From contig JAFIFH010000067.1 in assembly GCA_020832105.1 (NCBI GenBank), positions 25,158 through 89,157 of the forward strand: a DNA stretch of 64,000 nucleotides. Reading direction: 5' to 3'. The position numbers and the translations under genes were made by a program. Below, piece by piece: positions 3,399 to 26,678 of this stretch (positions are counted from its first letter, which is position 1; each line of letters opens with the position of its first letter). A model generated the notes under the pieces. The model had not been told where the DNA came from. It made no database searches and saw only the letters and a program-made list of their open reading frames with translations. This DNA comes from Idiomarina sp. (lineage in GTDB: Bacteria > Pseudomonadota > Gammaproteobacteria > Enterobacterales > Alteromonadaceae).

Positions 3399-3527
3399 CG
3401 TCAAGCATATAATATTTATTTTGAGGAGTTTCGTATGATTCATACACAGTATATCGGTCGATACTTAATCAGCGCTGTTCTAACCGACATTTGCGACATA
3501 TCCGCGCTATTTGAAATCGCTTTCTCA

Positions 3528-3674
3528 TAGGTCAGGCTGCGCCTGACGTCGCACAATGGTTAACGTCAGGCGTAGGTCAGGCCACGCCTGACGCAGAGCG
3601 ATGGTTGATGTTCCCGCAGGTCAGGCCCCGCCTGACGCCACACAATGATTAACGTCATGCGCAGCCTGACCTAC
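3528..3674. repeat. REP-like repeat cluster
   Basis: Three successive GGTCAGGC...GCCTGACG units closed by GCGCAGCCTGACCTAC. Confidence 0.9.
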
Positions 3675-4863: not shown

Positions 4864-4899
4864 TTGGTATTGAAATTGCATTGTTCTAAAACAATGCAC

Positions 4900-4988
4900 G
4901 TAGGTCAGGCTCCGCCTGACGTCCAATAAAGCCATGGGGATACAATTAACCCCATGAATTACGGACCGTCAGGCAGAGCCTGACCTAC
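4900..4988. repeat. REP-like inverted pair
   Basis: GTAGGTCAGGCTCCGCCTGACG ... CGTCAGGCAGAGCCTGACCTAC. Confidence 0.9.
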
Positions 4989-5050
4989 GATAAACAAAAC
5001 CATGGGGGCAACCCCATGATGCAAAAATCAAAACAACAGGTAATCCAAGC

Positions 5051-8221: not shown

Positions 8222-8246
8222 TTGTTTTGGCGCGTGCGCCGATAAC

Positions 8247-8350
8247 GTAGGGCAGGCTTCGCCTGCCGCGGAACAAATGGTTAACGTCAGGCCGTAGGTC
8301 AGGCTCCGCCTGACGCAACGCAATGCCTAACGTCAGGCGTAGCCTGACCA
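8247..8350. repeat. REP-like repeat cluster between flgK and flgL
   Basis: GTAGGGCAGGCTTCGCCTGCCG (variant), GTAGGTCAGGCTCCGCCTGACG, CGTCAGGCGTAGCCTGACC. Confidence 0.9.
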
Positions 8351-8423
8351 ACATTAAAAAAATATTGGCGTTAAATAATATACGCCCAACGAACACCATT
8401 CCCCACGTGAGGAGGAATAAACT

Positions 8424-9656
8424 ATGCGATTATCCACCAGCCAAATTTACGACAAAGGCTTAAGCTCGGTTATTGACCGCCAGCAAAAGCTGGTCAAGGT
8501 GCAGGACCAAATTGCCAAAGAAACCAAAATCCTCACGCCGGCGGACGATCCAGCAGGCAAGGCCCAGGCCATGGCACTGACTGATCGTATTAAACAGAAT
8601 GAGCAGTTTCAGAAGAACTCGCAGTTGGTGTTGAATGATCTGTCGCGGCAGGAGTCGGTGATGGCGAATATCAGTGAATCTCTATTCCGTGCAAAGGAGC
8701 TGTTCGTACAAGCAGGGAACGGAGCATTAGATCCAACTGATCGTAAATCTTTAGCGCTTGAAATTGAAGTCCTGCGTGACAACGCGCTTGATATGATGAA
8801 CGCGCGCAATGAGAACGGTGATTACTTGTTTTCTGGTTACCAAACAGAAGCTCAGCCATTTGTTTTTAACCCAACGACTGGTGTTTACGACTACGAGGGA
8901 GACAGCGGCGCGAAGAATGTTCAGCTAACTTCTAGCTTGCAGGTTAAATCAAGCACGCCTGGAAGCGAAGCTTTTCAACAGACCCCCGTGCAATTAAAAG
9001 CGCGGGTTGAGGGTTCAGGCGGAGATGTTACGGGTGGTCGCAGTGCTATTGCCGACAGGGCAACTTGGAACAGTTACCATGCTGCAAATTTTGATAAACA
9101 GGATTCAGCCAATAATTTGTATACGGCATCCGTCAATGCAGGTACTTACTCCATCACTAAACCTGACCCAGACGGTGGTGCCCCTATTGAAGTCGCGAGT
9201 GGCGCATATACGCCAGGTGAACCTATCGAGTATCAGGGAATGGATCTTAGTTTATTAGGCGATGCCACCGACGGGACGCTTGAGTTCCGCTTAAGTCAGC
9301 CCAAGCAAAATGTGGCCACAATACTAAATGACATGGCGAGAGCCCTAAATGATCCTACCATCGGTGATGAAGGGTTAGCGCAGGCAGTAGAATTTGGTTT
9401 GTCAGATCTGGATTCTGCAGAAGTGAGTCTGGGTAGCGTGCGTGCGAAAACGGGTAGCCGCATGAACAGCGCAGAGACCGCTATTATGACAAATACCGAC
9501 TTTGAAATTGCCAACAAAGAGACTCGCTCTCGTATCCAGGACGTTGACTATGCAGTGGCAATGACAGAACTTACTAAACAAGATACTGCATTACAGGCAG
9601 CACAGGCAACTTTCACCCGGATTACTCGGCTCAGCTTGTTTGATTACTTACGTTAA
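8424..9656 (+). CDS. flgL: Flagellar hook-associated protein FlgL
   Basis: MRLSTSQIYDKGLSSVIDRQQKLVKVQDQIAKETKILTPADDPAGKAQAM. Confidence 0.95.
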   Translation: MRLSTSQIYDKGLSSVIDRQQKLVKVQDQIAKETKILTPADDPAGKAQAMALTDRIKQNEQFQKNSQLVLNDLSRQESVMANISESLFRAKELFVQAGNGALDPTDRKSLALEIEVLRDNALDMMNARNENGDYLFSGYQTEAQPFVFNPTTGVYDYEGDSGAKNVQLTSSLQVKSSTPGSEAFQQTPVQLKARVEGSGGDVTGGRSAIADRATWNSYHAANFDKQDSANNLYTASVNAGTYSITKPDPDGGAPIEVASGAYTPGEPIEYQGMDLSLLGDATDGTLEFRLSQPKQNVATILNDMARALNDPTIGDEGLAQAVEFGLSDLDSAEVSLGSVRAKTGSRMNSAETAIMTNTDFEIANKETRSRIQDVDYAVAMTELTKQDTALQAAQATFTRITRLSLFDYLR

Positions 9657-9682
9657 TATCGCCTGAGCATCCTCCGTTGATT

Positions 9683-9710
9683 AAAAAGACCGCCTTCAGC
9701 GGTCTTTTTA
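9683..9710 (+). terminator. Rho-independent terminator after flgL
   Basis: AAAAAGACCGC-CTTCA-GCGGTCTTTTT. Confidence 0.85.
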
Positions 9711-9745
9711 ATTGTAAAGATAGTTAAATTAGCTCAAATTTTACT

Positions 9746-9772
9746 TAAAGATACTCCAGCCCCTGCCGTTAT
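9746..9772 (+). promoter_or_regulatory. sigma28 (FliA) promoter, flagellin 1
   Basis: TAAA-N15-GCCGTTAT. Confidence 0.8.
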
Positions 9773-9860
9773 ATATATCAAGCAAGGCGCATAGCGCTAA
9801 CTAAATTAAAAGCCCGTAGGGCTAGATATAAACCGCCATTATACGGCCAGGAGAATAACC

Positions 9861-10766
9861 ATGTCTTTATATGTAAATACAAACGTTTCCTCATTGAATG
9901 CACAACGTCAGTTAATGAGTTCAAGCAACGGTTTAGACACTGCGTTTGAGCGTCTTTCTTCTGGCTTTCGTATCAACAGCGCGGCAGACGATGCAGCTGG
10001 TTTGCAAATCACTAACCGCATGACGTCACAGATTAACGGTCTGAATCAGGCAGTTCGTAACGCTAACGATGGTATCTCTGTTGCTCAGGTAGCAGAGGGT
10101 GCATTGCAGGAAACCACTAATATGCTGCAGCGTATGCGTGAGCTGGTCATCCAGGCGGATAACGGTGTCAATGATGACGCTGAACTATCAGCGATTCAGC
10201 AGGAAATTGATGAACTAGTGACGGAAATCGGTCGTGTTGCGACTACCACTGAGTTCTCTGGTAAGAAAGTTTTGGATGGTAGCGCGGACGGTGGCAATGG
10301 CGGAAACGACTTAAACTTCCTGGTGGGCGCTCGTGGTGGTGCAGATGAAACCATTAGCATCCGTATTGCAAGTATGGACAAAGATGCATTGGGAGCGGAT
10401 GCGGATGGTGTCGCTCAGGCAACTTACGCGAACATTGAAGATATTGATGTGCAGAATATGGTAGCTCATGTTGATGACACTACTGAAAGTTCACAAAACA
10501 TGCTTGCTGTGATTGACAAAGCGATTACTGATGTTGGCGAACAGCGCTCACAATTGGGTGCGATTCAAAACCGTTTTCAATCAACGATTGCTAACTTAAG
10601 CAACGTATCAGAAAACGTATCAGCTGCTCGCTCACGTATTATGGACACTGATTTTGCCGCAGAAACCGCGCAACTGACTCGCTTCCAGATCACTCAACAA
10701 GCATCGACCAGCATCTTGGCGCAGGCGAATCAGCGTCCACAGGCGGCATTGTCACTGCTGGGCTAA
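9861..10766 (+). CDS. Flagellin (copy 1)
   Basis: MSLYVNTNVSSLNAQRQLMSSSNGLDTAFERLSSGFRINSAADDAAGLQI; conserved C-term TSILAQANQRPQAALSLLG. Confidence 0.97.
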   Translation: MSLYVNTNVSSLNAQRQLMSSSNGLDTAFERLSSGFRINSAADDAAGLQITNRMTSQINGLNQAVRNANDGISVAQVAEGALQETTNMLQRMRELVIQADNGVNDDAELSAIQQEIDELVTEIGRVATTTEFSGKKVLDGSADGGNGGNDLNFLVGARGGADETISIRIASMDKDALGADADGVAQATYANIEDIDVQNMVAHVDDTTESSQNMLAVIDKAITDVGEQRSQLGAIQNRFQSTIANLSNVSENVSAARSRIMDTDFAAETAQLTRFQITQQASTSILAQANQRPQAALSLLG

Positions 10767-10821
10767 GTACAAAGTAACGTGAATATAGCGAATTAATGCG
10801 CTTCACCGTAGCAAGACTAAT

Positions 10822-10853
10822 GAAAAGCCAGGCTCATGTAGACTGGCTTTTTC
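10822..10853 (+). terminator. Terminator after flagellin 1
   Basis: AAAAGCCAG-loop-CTGGCTTTTT. Confidence 0.75.
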
Positions 10854-10900
10854 CATGCAAGAAGAATAATTTCTGATGCAAAAAAATAAAATCATTTAAC

Positions 10901-10927
10901 TCAAGTATTTGCAACTCCTGCCGTTAT
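10901..10927 (+). promoter_or_regulatory. sigma28 promoter, flagellin 2
   Basis: TCAA-N15-GCCGTTAT. Confidence 0.7.
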
Positions 10928-11016
10928 ATAAATCAAGCAAGGCGCACTGCGCTAATCAAATTAAAACAGCCCGTAGGGCTAGATTAAACCGCCAATACAA
11001 GGCCAGGAGATTAACC

Positions 11017-11922
11017 ATGTCTTTATACGTAAATACTAACGTTTCATCATTAAACGCTCAGCGTCAATTAATGAGTTCAAGCAACGGCTTAGACACCGCA
11101 TTTGAGCGCCTGTCTTCTGGCTTTCGTATCAACAGCGCAGCAGACGATGCAGCTGGTTTGCAAATCACTAACCGCATGACGTCACAGATTAACGGTCTGA
11201 ATCAGGCAGTTCGTAACGCTAACGATGGTATCTCTGTTGCTCAGGTAGCAGAGGGTGCACTGCAGGAAACCACCAACATGCTGCAACGTATGCGTGAGCT
11301 GGTCATCCAGGCGGATAACGGTGTCAATGATGATGCTGAACTTTCAGCGATTCAGCAGGAAATCGATGAGTTGGTAACTGAAATTGGCCGTGTTGCGACA
11401 ACGACTGAGTTCTCTGGTAAGAAAGTTCTCGACGGTAGTGCTGATGGTGATGCTACAGGAAACGACTTAAACTTCCTGGTGGGCGCTCGTGGTGGTACCG
11501 ACGAAACCATTAGTATCCGTATTGCAAGCATGGACAGCGATGCTCTTGGAGCTGATGCAGATGGTGTCACTCTGGCAGCCTATGGGAGTATCGAGGGTAT
11601 TGATGTGCAAAATATGGAAGCTCATGTAGATGGAAATTCGGAAAGCTCGCAAAACATGCTGGCTGTAATTGACAAAGCGATTAGCGATGTCGGTGAACAG
11701 CGTTCACAGTTAGGTGCGATTCAAAACCGTTTTCAGTCTACGATTGCTAACTTAAGCAACGTATCAGAAAACGTGTCAGCTGCCCGCTCACGTATTATGG
11801 ACACTGATTTTGCTGCAGAAACAGCACAGCTGACTCGCTTCCAGATCACTCAGCAGGCGTCGACCAGTATCTTGGCGCAGGCCAACCAGCGTCCACAGGC
11901 GGCATTGTCACTGTTAGGGTAA
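11017..11922 (+). CDS. Flagellin (copy 2); start trimmed from the supplied ORF at 10909
   Basis: MSLYVNTNVSSLNAQRQ preceded by CCAGGAG; near-identical to copy 1 at both ends. Confidence 0.97.
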   Translation: MSLYVNTNVSSLNAQRQLMSSSNGLDTAFERLSSGFRINSAADDAAGLQITNRMTSQINGLNQAVRNANDGISVAQVAEGALQETTNMLQRMRELVIQADNGVNDDAELSAIQQEIDELVTEIGRVATTTEFSGKKVLDGSADGDATGNDLNFLVGARGGTDETISIRIASMDSDALGADADGVTLAAYGSIEGIDVQNMEAHVDGNSESSQNMLAVIDKAISDVGEQRSQLGAIQNRFQSTIANLSNVSENVSAARSRIMDTDFAAETAQLTRFQITQQASTSILAQANQRPQAALSLLG

Positions 11923-11958: not shown

Positions 11959-12037
11959 TGACCCTTAGCTTTACCGAGGGAAAGAGCCGACCACCCAGGG
12001 AAAGGGGGTCTTATTATGGGGCACCCTGGGTGGTTGG
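11959..12037 (+). ncRNA. Putative structured RNA element A (two hairpins), unknown family
   Basis: CCCTT...GAGGG hairpin, then 14-bp stem CCGACCACCCAGGG/CCCTGGGTGGTTGG with 23-nt loop; sequence and structure similarity to 15392-15462. Confidence 0.5.
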
Positions 12038-12052
12038 TAGATTTATTGAACA

Positions 12053-12079
12053 AAAACCGAGCATTCGCTCGGTTTTTTT
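12053..12079 (+). terminator. Rho-independent terminator following element A
   Basis: AAACCGAGC-ATTC-GCTCGGTTTTTTT. Confidence 0.85.
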
Positions 12080-12116: not shown

Positions 12117-12201
12117 CCTGTGTGTAGGGGAAAGTATCTATATGCATTCTGCATAAAAATACATACAGGCAGCAAGCGCAATGCTTGCGAAGGAGAGTTT
12201 T

Positions 12202-13198: not shown

Positions 13199-13290
13199 AG
13201 CAGATGTAGGGGAAGTTGTATGCCGGGAGTGGTTGCCTGGAATACAAAAATTACAATTAGGCAGCAAGCTACGCTTGCAAAGGAGATCTT

Positions 13291-14267: not shown

Positions 14268-14359
14268 CCTAGATGTAGGGGAAATTGTTTGTCGGGAGTG
14301 GTTGCCTGACTCACAAAAATTATAATTAGGCAGCAAGCTTAGCTTGCAAAGGAGATCTT

Positions 14360-15356: not shown

Positions 15357-15383
15357 AAAAAACCAGGCAGGGGCCTGGTTTTT
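15357..15383 (+). terminator. Second terminator just upstream of element B
   Basis: AAAAAACCAGGC-AGG-GGCCTGGTTTTT. Confidence 0.75.
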
Positions 15384-15391
15384 ATGCTGCC

Positions 15392-15462
15392 TGACCCTTA
15401 AAAGGGAAAGAACCGGCTAGTCGGGAAAAGGAGGTTGTAGGGGGGGCATCCCAACTAGCCGG
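15392..15462 (+). ncRNA. Putative structured RNA element B (two hairpins), unknown family
   Basis: TGACCCTTAAAAGGGAAAGAA, then stem CCGGCTAGTCGGG/CCCAACTAGCCGG (12 of 13 paired) with loop AAAAGGAGGTTGTAGGGGGGGCAT; related to element A. Confidence 0.5.
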
Positions 15463-15719
15463 CAGACACAAGTAACTTTGCAGCAAGCGTGCCAATATTG
15501 TCATGGACTGACAAAATCTTTAAAAAAAGAGCCGTTAAGCAATGAGTAGCTTGAAAAATAGCCGCCAAATAAACCCAAAACAGTGCAGCTGAGCTAAAAA
15601 CCGCGACAGTGAGACACCTAGCCGCTTAATTTATTCGGGAAACCGTCACGCAACGGCAGTGAATTGCCACTTAGAAGAGTATTGGCGGCAAACAATGCCC
15701 TGCTTACTGAAATAAAGAC

Positions 15720-21113: not shown

Positions 21114-22409
21114 TTGATGGCGCAAAGCGCAGAGCAACTAATTGAGCGATTTTCTCAATTAGGTGAGCCGACCACTTTTGACATGCCGGACTTTCCAGAG
21201 TATCAACTTGATACGGCTGAGATTCCTGCAGCGCTCTCATTAACCCGCGCGCCTCAAGCAGGCGAGAACAAATTCGTGGCTGCCCACGCATTTATGGCAC
21301 TGACCCAGCGCCGTGATGAGAAGCTTCTTGGCGAGCTGCTACAAACGGCAGATGAAACGCTGCTATTGCGACTCGGTGAGTTTGTAAGCACCCATGCGAT
21401 ACCCTTTTATGACATTGAACTGGTGGGGGAGCTGGATACGATTGTCCGCCACCAAGGGTTAAGCCCTGTCCGGAGGCTCTTCGCTGCGCAACTACTGCAA
21501 GAATTCGCGCTTCTGCATCCGGAATATTACGGTCGCACGATTAAAGTCATTGCTGCATGCTTGCAGTCGTTTGCGACGAACCCGAGTAAAGTTAATGCCG
21601 AGCTGATTGGTGCATGCGTGACGTTGCAGGCGGATGAATTGATGCCAGTGATTGAGCAGGCCTATGCAGCTGACAAAGTCAGCGGTAGCGACTATGCCGC
21701 GGCAACTGATGTCCAAGCGGCGATGTCGGTGCCGGAGACTGCCTTCGAGCAGGGGCTTGAGCAGTTTATGCATACCAAAGAGTTGGATGAGATTCGCCAT
21801 GAACTTGATCAGGTATATGCTATTCGCACCTGTGCAGCACCTGCTGGATTAGAGTTGCCAATTGGTAACCTGGCTGAGCTAGATGGTTTTTTGCATGCAT
21901 TGGCATTAAGTCCAACGCCGGTTGCCCGGTCGTTGTGGATTGAGCAATTAAGCCCGGGCTTGTTGGCCGAGCAGGGCGGCCTTAGCCAGGAGCATCGGCT
22001 GGAGAAAATCACTACCTATTACTCGGTGGTCAAAGAATCATTGGTGGTTGGTGAGTGTGCGCCAAACTTTGAACTGAGTGTTGAAAGTACGGTGATGAAT
22101 TTGAATTCGATGCAGCCCTGGGCTCGCGGTTTCTTGCTGGCAGCTGAACTGTGGACAGAATCTGATATTACCCAGGCCGAAGCGCATGAAGCCTATATTG
22201 AATTAAAAGAATTTTTACAGGCGATGGCCGAAGATACGCCCTTGCCTGAACAATATCAGTCGCTGGCCAACAGCGATTACAGCATGATATTGCAGTTGAT
22301 GGTGCAGCGTGTTTTCTTCGAACTGAATGGAATGGATGATGCCCAGCTCGGCGCATCAGACATCTCCGACGAAGACGCAATGCAGGATTTTTTCGATAAT
22401 TTCTCGTAG
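21114..22409 (+). CDS. DUF1186-like protein, possibly with a UPF0149/YecA-like second half
   Basis: NAELIGACVTLQADELMPVIEQAYAADKVS (DUF1186-like); LDGFLHALALSPTPVARSLWIEQL (YecA/UPF0149-like). Confidence 0.5.
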   Translation: MMAQSAEQLIERFSQLGEPTTFDMPDFPEYQLDTAEIPAALSLTRAPQAGENKFVAAHAFMALTQRRDEKLLGELLQTADETLLLRLGEFVSTHAIPFYDIELVGELDTIVRHQGLSPVRRLFAAQLLQEFALLHPEYYGRTIKVIAACLQSFATNPSKVNAELIGACVTLQADELMPVIEQAYAADKVSGSDYAAATDVQAAMSVPETAFEQGLEQFMHTKELDEIRHELDQVYAIRTCAAPAGLELPIGNLAELDGFLHALALSPTPVARSLWIEQLSPGLLAEQGGLSQEHRLEKITTYYSVVKESLVVGECAPNFELSVESTVMNLNSMQPWARGFLLAAELWTESDITQAEAHEAYIELKEFLQAMAEDTPLPEQYQSLANSDYSMILQLMVQRVFFELNGMDDAQLGASDISDEDAMQDFFDNFS

Positions 22410-22565
22410 GTCAGGCTACGCCTGACGCCCAGCGGTGGTCAACGATTCCTAGGTCAGGCTAAGCCTGACGCCGCGCGATGCCTAACGATTCGAAGGTCAG
22501 GCTACGTCCGCGTCACGCAGTGATGACGCCCAGCGGTGGTCAACGTCAGGCGTAGCCTGACCTAC
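22406..22565. repeat. REP-like repeat cluster
   Basis: Multiple GTAGGTCAGGCTACGCCTGACG-type units, closing GTCAGGCGTAGCCTGACCTAC. Confidence 0.92.
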
Positions 22566-22578
22566 AAATAACCGCATC

Positions 22579-23052
22579 ATGACCAATAACCAAACCCAAA
22601 TAAAACACCAACCTACACGAACTGAACCCATGACCTATTCTGAACTAGAACTCGCCTACATGTTAGTCAGCGCCAAAGGCACCGGCCTTGAGGTGAATGC
22701 GTATGTTGAGCGTAGCACCGGCGAAATCCATATTGATAATATTGAGCTCAATGAAGGTGATGAGATCCCGCAGGATCTAGCTCACGGTGCTAAATACGCT
22801 CAGGTACCAAGCCAAGAGGCGTTACTCAATGAGTTGGAGTTGATGCGGCTGTTGGTGGAGCGGCAGCTTAGCGGCGACGAGCAAGCTGAATTTGATAAAG
22901 CGACCATGGATATGGGTGACGACGAAGCGGTGAAGTCAGGCATTCACTACCTTAACTCCATTGGCAAGCTCGCCACCTGGCGCAAGCTAGTCAGCTCAGT
23001 ACAGGAAAAAGCCCTACGCAATTGGGCCGCTGAAGAGGATCTGCTGCTGTAG
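22579..23052 (+). CDS. Hypothetical protein, possibly UPF0158-like
   Basis: Open frame 157 aa; LEVNAYVERSTGEIHIDNIE pattern; annotation weak; start could be 22630. Confidence 0.5.
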   Translation: MTNNQTQIKHQPTRTEPMTYSELELAYMLVSAKGTGLEVNAYVERSTGEIHIDNIELNEGDEIPQDLAHGAKYAQVPSQEALLNELELMRLLVERQLSGDEQAEFDKATMDMGDDEAVKSGIHYLNSIGKLATWRKLVSSVQEKALRNWAAEEDLLL

Positions 23053-23140
23053 GTCAGGCTACGCCTGACGTTAACCAATGGCGCAGCCTGACCTACCGAA
23101 ACATCAACCATGGCTGTGCGTCAGGCAGAGCCTGACCTAC
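23049..23140. repeat. REP-like repeat cluster
   Basis: GTAGGTCAGGCTACGCCTGACGTTAACCAATGGCGCAGCCTGACCTAC plus GCGTCAGGCAGAGCCTGACCTAC. Confidence 0.92.
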
Positions 23141-23157
23141 GACAAACCCCAGGCACA

Positions 23158-26435: not shown

Positions 26436-26445
26436 TGTGATTGTT

Positions 26446-26581
26446 GTAGGTCAGGCTTCGTCTGACGCCGCGTGATGGTTGAATGTTTCGTAGGTCAGGC
26501 ACAACATAACCTAACGTCAGGCGGGGCCTGACCTACGGGTGACGCACAATATAACCGAACGTTAGGCGGAGCCTGACCTAC
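26446..26581. repeat. REP-like repeat cluster
   Basis: GTAGGTCAGGCTTCGTCTGACG ... CGTCAGGCGGGGCCTGACCTAC ... GTTAGGCGGAGCCTGACCTAC. Confidence 0.92.
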
Positions 26582-26678
26582 GGACCAATGCACGGAACAA
26601 ATTAAAATCCAACGGGCGGAAAACACCCCGCGACGAGCAAAATTAAACATTAAAATTTAAGCGACGGACTAAATAAGC

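Follow-up and report, generated by a model that had tools for sequence, protein, structure and literature searches.

In Campylobacter jejuni, FlmE and FlmR (CJnc230 and CJnc170) are an RpoN-dependent and a FliA-dependent flagellar RNA that have opposing effects in the flagellar cascade (PMC11187230). FlmE arises mostly by processing of the flgE mRNA, and its repression concerns flgM and Cj1387c rather than a flagellin ribosome-binding site; FlmR is a separate sRNA and has not been described as FlmE's mirror paralogue (PMC11187230). In Helicobacter pylori, RepG uses the C/U-rich loop of its terminator to bind a G-run located in a leader far upstream of the ribosome-binding site, and in this way regulates tlpB-hp0102 through a phase-variable G-repeat (PMC8295292). 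E. coli FliX derives from the 3′ end of the flagellin mRNA and pairs within fliC and with S10-operon sequences (PMC10578931). Finally, the Campylobacter sRNAs CjNC1 and CjNC4 are paralogous, sigma28-dependent and predicted to pair with 5′UTRs of the other flagellar sigma class, that is, with sigma54 leaders (PMC4626219).

The two hairpins considered here, A and B, were found in a window of 64,000 nucleotides, the whole stretch of DNA that was analysed. Compared by description, they resemble FlmE and FlmR in that an RpoN-type RNA (B) and a sigma28-linked RNA (A) are proposed to have opposing roles. A FlmE-type origin from the 3′ end of the flgE mRNA was not observed, as B is located on the other strand, in the space between flagellin genes, and has a promoter signal of its own. 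Like RepG, B would present a C/U-rich terminator loop to a leader G-run far upstream of the ribosome-binding site, but with a fixed sequence, the UGUAGGGG of flagellin leaders, as its putative target and with a promoter of the sigma54 type. A, like FliX, is proposed to be an RNA from the 3′ end of a flagellin mRNA, but one that would pair with another sRNA. Relative to CjNC1 and CjNC4, the sigma classes are reversed. We take FlmE/FlmR and RepG as functional parallels rather than relatives of A and B.

The stem of hairpin A is formed by CCGACCACCCAGGG (11987–12000) and CCCTGGGTGGTTGG (12024–12037), with 13 Watson–Crick pairs and one G-U pair, and encloses a loop of 23 nt; both arms are as given in the initial annotation. 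The second copy reported there, element B, is also present (15392–15462), with a 14-position stem at 15413–15426 and 15449–15462. Between A and B, six of the 14 stem pairs are altered on both sides with pairing kept, and one B pair is broken if element B is read on the plus strand. Fold z-scores are −3.15 for A (plus strand) and −4.97 for B (minus strand). The only matches to the pattern TGACCCTTN{0,20}AGGGAAAG in the genome are the A and B sites, and the chance expectation for a slightly shorter form of the pattern in the window is 0 matches. Both copies are located inside an array of six flagellins that is followed by FlaG, FliD and FliS. Judged by their sequences, A and B are paralogous 14-bp hairpins within the flagellin array of an Aliidiomarina-group genome. 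Neither copy is explained by a known RNA family, since an Rfam scan returned no match in the window at the curated gathering score (the best sub-threshold match had 28.2 bits against a cut-off of 50). The window also holds REP-like palindromes (GTAGGTCAGGC..GCCTGACG) as intergenic repeats, at 139–200, 3524–3670, 4897–4989, 8244–8353, 22403–22566, 23046–23141 and 26443–26582. The features of the locus are collected in Table 1.

Table 1. Predicted features of the flagellin array around hairpins A and B (window coordinates)
Feature	Position	Strand	Basis or remark
Flagellin 2, 3′UTR with hairpin A	11017–11922	+	ORF called from TTG 10909, ATG at 11017; neighbours Flagellin_N/C
Small 5′ hairpin CCCTT..AGGG of the initial annotation	11962–11980	+	In this genome only
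Hairpin A, 14-bp stem, loop AAAGGGGGTCTTATTATGGGGCA; plus-strand RNA of flagellin 3′UTR, proposed B decoy	11987–12037	+	Stem covariation, wobble polarity
Intrinsic terminator of flagellin 2 mRNA, downstream of A	12052–12077	+	
TGTAGGGG, predicted 5′ end of flagellin 3 mRNA, right after sigma28-like −10 GCCGACGA; candidate site for B loop CCCCUACA	12123–12130	+	
Flagellin 3 Shine-Dalgarno AAGGAG; candidate site for B loop CUCCUU	12190–12195	+	
TGTAGGGG, predicted 5′ end of flagellin 4 mRNA	13205–13212	+	
Flagellin 4 Shine-Dalgarno AAAGGAG	13279–13285	+	
TGTAGGGG, predicted 5′ end of flagellin 5 mRNA	14274–14281	+	
Flagellin 5 Shine-Dalgarno AAAGGAG	14348–14354	+	
Second intrinsic terminator downstream of B	15358–15383	−	
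Putative sRNA B, ~64 nt: hairpin 15462–15413, loop UGCCCCCCCUACAACCUCCUUU, then UUCUUUCC	15405–15468	−	Covariation; model match 84.7 bits; predicted start and end
Sigma54 promoter TTGGCACGCTTGCTGC (GG-N10-GC) heading B	15480–15495	−	Such a site beside B in 11/11 genomes; +1 predicted near 15468

A covariance model built from the A and B copies gave strong matches in 10 of the 19 genomes of the genus; refined models (R2 and R3) brought in an eleventh genome (G018), where B was detected but not A, and recovered a copy of A in another (G006). Relatives with covarying stems are therefore present in 11 of 19 genus genomes, bearing out the proposal that an RNA structure is under selection. The initial annotation had described a double-hairpin element. 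In the alignment, conservation is confined to the 14-bp hairpin, the ends of its loop and a few bases on either side; the small 5′ hairpin, which accompanies both A and B in this genome, is not kept in the relatives. The exact motif of that hairpin matched once in the relatives, within an sspA-like ORF, and we judged this match to be due to chance. Each positive genome has one to three hairpin copies in a fixed place, between flagellin genes or directly behind them. At two loci, two B hairpins stand in direct tandem behind one sigma54 promoter (L030:10122–10270 and L031:9729–9874). At another (L032:9208–11243), an IS200/IS605-type insertion with a TnpB-like ORF (9604–10902, Pfam) and a small ORF resembling TnpA (10839–11243) interrupts the divergent flagellin between A and B. 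We also considered the A–B interval as a cassette or recombination site, and discarded this idea when the odd interval of G013 turned out to be an IS200/IS605-type insertion into a flagellin.

The 11 positive genomes are exactly those with an MSLYVNTN-type flagellin array beside flgL, while the other eight have different flagellin arrangements. Since B and this flagellin type co-occur perfectly, the absence of B elsewhere is not independent evidence. With strict filters, model R2 matched only within the genus among 199 family and 395 order genomes; R3 matches in other genera (E 0.02–0.08) were not near flagellins and were set aside. When the exact 17-mer of the B loop was searched in 84,980 species genomes, real matches came only from Aliidiomarina-group records, and the remaining ones, which mostly fit the model over the searched 17-mer alone, were rejected.

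On which strand do the hairpins function? Read as minus-strand RNA, the B class has all of its 126 stem cells paired (126/126), with 10 of 14 pairs changed on both sides. The A class, read as plus-strand RNA, is 96% paired, with 8 of 14 pairs changed on both sides. The imperfect pairs of the two classes are of opposite types. On the plus strand, B has no G-T and 18 A-C wobbles, the latter equivalent to G-U on the minus strand, whereas A has 18 G-T, no A-C and four other mismatches. As the wobbles occupy seven different stem positions in B and eight in A, they do not go back to one inherited change. We regard this opposite polarity as decisive: it indicates that selection acts on B as a minus-strand RNA and on A as a plus-strand RNA. 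The original notion of two copies of one plus-strand RNA is not supported: for B, the minus strand is the one under selection, and it also carries the sigma54 promoter. The loops also differ between the classes. On the plus strand the B loop, AAAGGAGGTTGTAGGGGGGCA, is identical in 11 of 12 aligned copies, with one extra C in the twelfth (the G018 loop, which differs at one end, is outside this alignment). The near-invariant loop of the B RNA is UGCCCCCCUACAACCUCCUUU. In A copies, the loop ends are conserved and the middle is variable.

Next to every B cluster, the minus strand carries a sequence match to the sigma54 −24/−12 element, TTGGCA(C/T)-N7-GC, at 160 nt or less from B in all 11 loci; 7.6 matches would be expected in all 216 kb on both strands. 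Moreover, a UUCUUUU-like tract follows the B hairpin in most copies. Given this combination of promoter and U-rich tract, B looks like an RpoN-type sRNA; two of the features that would characterise a sigma54-dependent base-pairing sRNA, GG-N10-GC on the 5′ side and a conserved structure on the transcribed strand with a terminator-like 3′ end, are found. Beside A there is no sigma54 promoter, save for one poor match in G013. Instead, A always lies in a flagellin 3′UTR, between the stop codon and the terminator of that gene. This placement had been noted for the present copy and is correct: the stop codon of flagellin 2 is at 11920–11922, with A upstream of the intrinsic terminator.

What might B recognise? 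Its loop holds CCCCUACA, the exact complement of UGUAGGGG, which stands where the sigma28-type mRNAs of adjacent flagellins are predicted to start. The other half of the loop, CUCCUUU, is complementary to AAAGGAG, the ribosome-binding site of flagellins 4 and 5. In every one of the 11 B-positive genomes, GTAGGGG, mostly as TGTAGGGG, comes immediately after sigma28-like −10 boxes that belong to flagellin genes or to the gene following the array; genomes without B have no such site at their flagellins. In the present genome, the three promoter-linked GTAGGGG matches are the only ones in 3 Mb. Within Aliidiomarina this complementarity is present without covariation, and it is best at the 5′ end of the mRNA, 70–90 nt from the start codon, rather than at the ribosome-binding site. 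The match to the ribosome-binding site is just 6–7 nt long and resembles any strong Shine-Dalgarno. Folding of the leaders with the 5′ site blocked neither consistently freed nor consistently closed the start codon, and the idea that B unmasks start codons was dropped for want of consistent support from folding. In G018, the divergent B loop CCUCUUA (L070:6891–6951; CCUCCUUU in the others) has a match in AAGAGGU, located in the leader of the gene that follows the flagellin array, possibly a co-evolved target, although a single case.

Outside Aliidiomarina, 40 flagellin loci of other genera were examined, and 24 of them, which come from 13 genera of the family, carry two sigma54 promoters on the minus strand in the corresponding intervals. 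A single flagellin gene, in most cases the penultimate one, lies between the two promoters, of which one is shortly before its start and the other ~300 nt or more after its stop. The promoters head two conserved putative RNAs, sRNA-I and sRNA-II. The loop of sRNA-I is ACCUC-A-ACCUCUCACUACCUCCUGGC, and sRNA-II is marked by ACUGGCCUCUCAACC...CUACACUCUCAGUCC. Both covary, and wobble counts favour the minus-strand RNA by 78 to 1 for sRNA-I and 66 to 3 for sRNA-II. No Rfam threshold was reached for either in the eight other-genus loci scanned, the exact sRNA-II motif was not found outside the family among 395 order genomes, and we found no mention of these RNAs in the open-access papers searched.

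For sRNA-II, the target itself covaries. Over 15 nt, CUACACUCUCAGUCC is antisense to GGACUGAGAGUGUAG, a sequence abutting the Shine-Dalgarno of the first flagellin, and compensatory changes occur at positions 8, 10, 11, 12 and 13 among 10 distinct sRNA–mRNA pairs. Cognate pairing is better than shuffled pairing (permutation P 0.0005 for the 10 distinct pairs, with L116, which has a one-base deletion in the seed, left out of the count). Loci that lack sRNA-II lack its target sequence as well. The UACCUCCUGG of sRNA-I matches CAGGAGGUA of the last flagellin, without covariation evidence. In the other-genus loci (L107–L146), sRNA-II also has a conserved hairpin that displays CACGUUAGGAGA, a sense copy of the ribosome-binding site of the middle flagellins, CGUUAGGAGA; this hairpin might titrate CsrA or another factor that binds ribosome-binding sites. 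One array (L127) contains three copies of the sRNA-II loop motif.

B has in common with these RNAs its place, promoter and strand as well as the short motifs CUACA and ACCUCC, and weak matches of the B model to some of them were obtained (best E 0.001 over 26 loci). On these grounds we infer common descent: B would probably be the Aliidiomarina counterpart of flagellin sRNAs that occur across the family behind sigma54 promoters.

The remaining element, A, has a loop complementary to both ends of the B loop, and of the duplexes predicted, A:B is the most stable (−48 to −84 kcal/mol). In nine of nine genomes it is stronger than the mean of duplexes formed with shuffled A. Cognate pairs are not systematically better than non-cognate ones, and the complementarity is due in part to paralogy. 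A lies in a flagellin 3′UTR and its loop is complementary to that of B; on these grounds it may be a decoy.

Taken together, these observations make it fairly probable that B is a sigma54-dependent flagellin sRNA and A its opposite-strand paralogue that titrates it; we infer the expression of B, the repression and the decoy role of A from sequence comparisons. According to this model, sigma54 RNA polymerase would transcribe the ~64-nt B RNA in the direction opposite to that of the flagellin genes. The 14-bp hairpin of this RNA would double as a terminator and present the C/U-rich loop, in which CCCCUACA would pair with UGUAGGGG at mRNA 5′ ends and CUCCUUU with AAAGGAG ribosome-binding sites. 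B would most likely lower flagellin translation until sigma28 transcription of flagellins is high, and A, in the 3′UTR of a flagellin mRNA, would most likely titrate B once flagellin is transcribed.

The same pairing could be read the other way round, with A as the main target of B, the duplex changing the stability of the upstream flagellin mRNA (for example, through RNase III cleavage) and the leader matches being secondary. Such a role would suit both the strength of the A:B duplex and the constant location of A within a flagellin 3′UTR. It is at odds with G018, where B occurs without a detectable A, with the ribosome-binding site as the covariation-supported target in other genera, and with the B loop positions that match UGUAGGGG, which are invariant yet largely unmatched in A; we therefore consider it unlikely. 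We give a similarly low probability to B being an activator of flagellin expression that covers the mRNA 5′ end, protecting it from decay, or opens the leader. The UGUAGGGG site does lie at the extreme 5′ end, distant from the ribosome-binding site, and folding predicts for some leaders that it pairs with the start region, but the effect on the leader differs between genes, and the paired site in other genera abuts the Shine-Dalgarno, which favours repression.

Two further explanations fare worse. The initial annotation had suggested a CsrA/Rsm target, and A, or A together with B, could in principle be a CsrA/Rsm-binding RNA: CsrB-like sRNAs exist in Alteromonas (PMC5864184), and GGA motifs occur in or near the A loop of several species, some of them as ANGGA. 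However, the B RNA is C-rich, and the present A loop (AAAGGGGGUCUU...) has no ANGGA. A sponge of the CsrB/RsmZ type does not fit either, as B is a single hairpin with no GGA in its loop and repeated GGA hairpins are found in neither RNA. This makes CsrA/Rsm binding a poor fit and quite improbable. Least probable by far is that the hairpins are DNA features, either ends or remnants of mobile elements (REP/MITE or IS200/IS605-type) or recombination sites in the flagellin array. One could point to the two copies per array with occasional tandem duplication (L030, L031), to the IS200/IS605-type insertion that one genome has between A and B, and to the REP-like repeats elsewhere in the window. But that insertion sits inside a flagellin gene and not at A or B, and no dispersed copies were found, the two in this genome both being in the flagellin cluster. 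Moreover, the one to three copies per genome keep a fixed place with a sigma54 promoter beside every B cluster, and the opposite wobble polarity of A and B would not be expected from DNA hairpins.

Beyond the decoy model itself, we tentatively propose a broader scenario, plausible though somewhat short of probable. An ancestral hairpin would have been duplicated and its copies kept on opposite strands, one as a sigma54-driven silencing sRNA and the other as an antisense decoy in a sigma28 flagellin 3′UTR. The result would be an sRNA/anti-sRNA timer within a family-wide system in which separate sRNAs serve separate flagellins of the same array.

Many polar-flagellated bacteria carry several flagellins in an array, which naturally raises the question of how each one is adjusted relative to the rest. 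Our analysis predicts that, in at least 13 genera, sigma54-timed sRNAs encoded between flagellin genes pair with the ribosome-binding sites of individual flagellins, with covariation support for one of these sRNAs. In Aliidiomarina, the mirror pair A/B suggests a route by which an sRNA and its own antagonist may arise from one sequence. If this is true, A and B would constitute a self-derived sRNA/anti-sRNA timer in the flagellar cascade.
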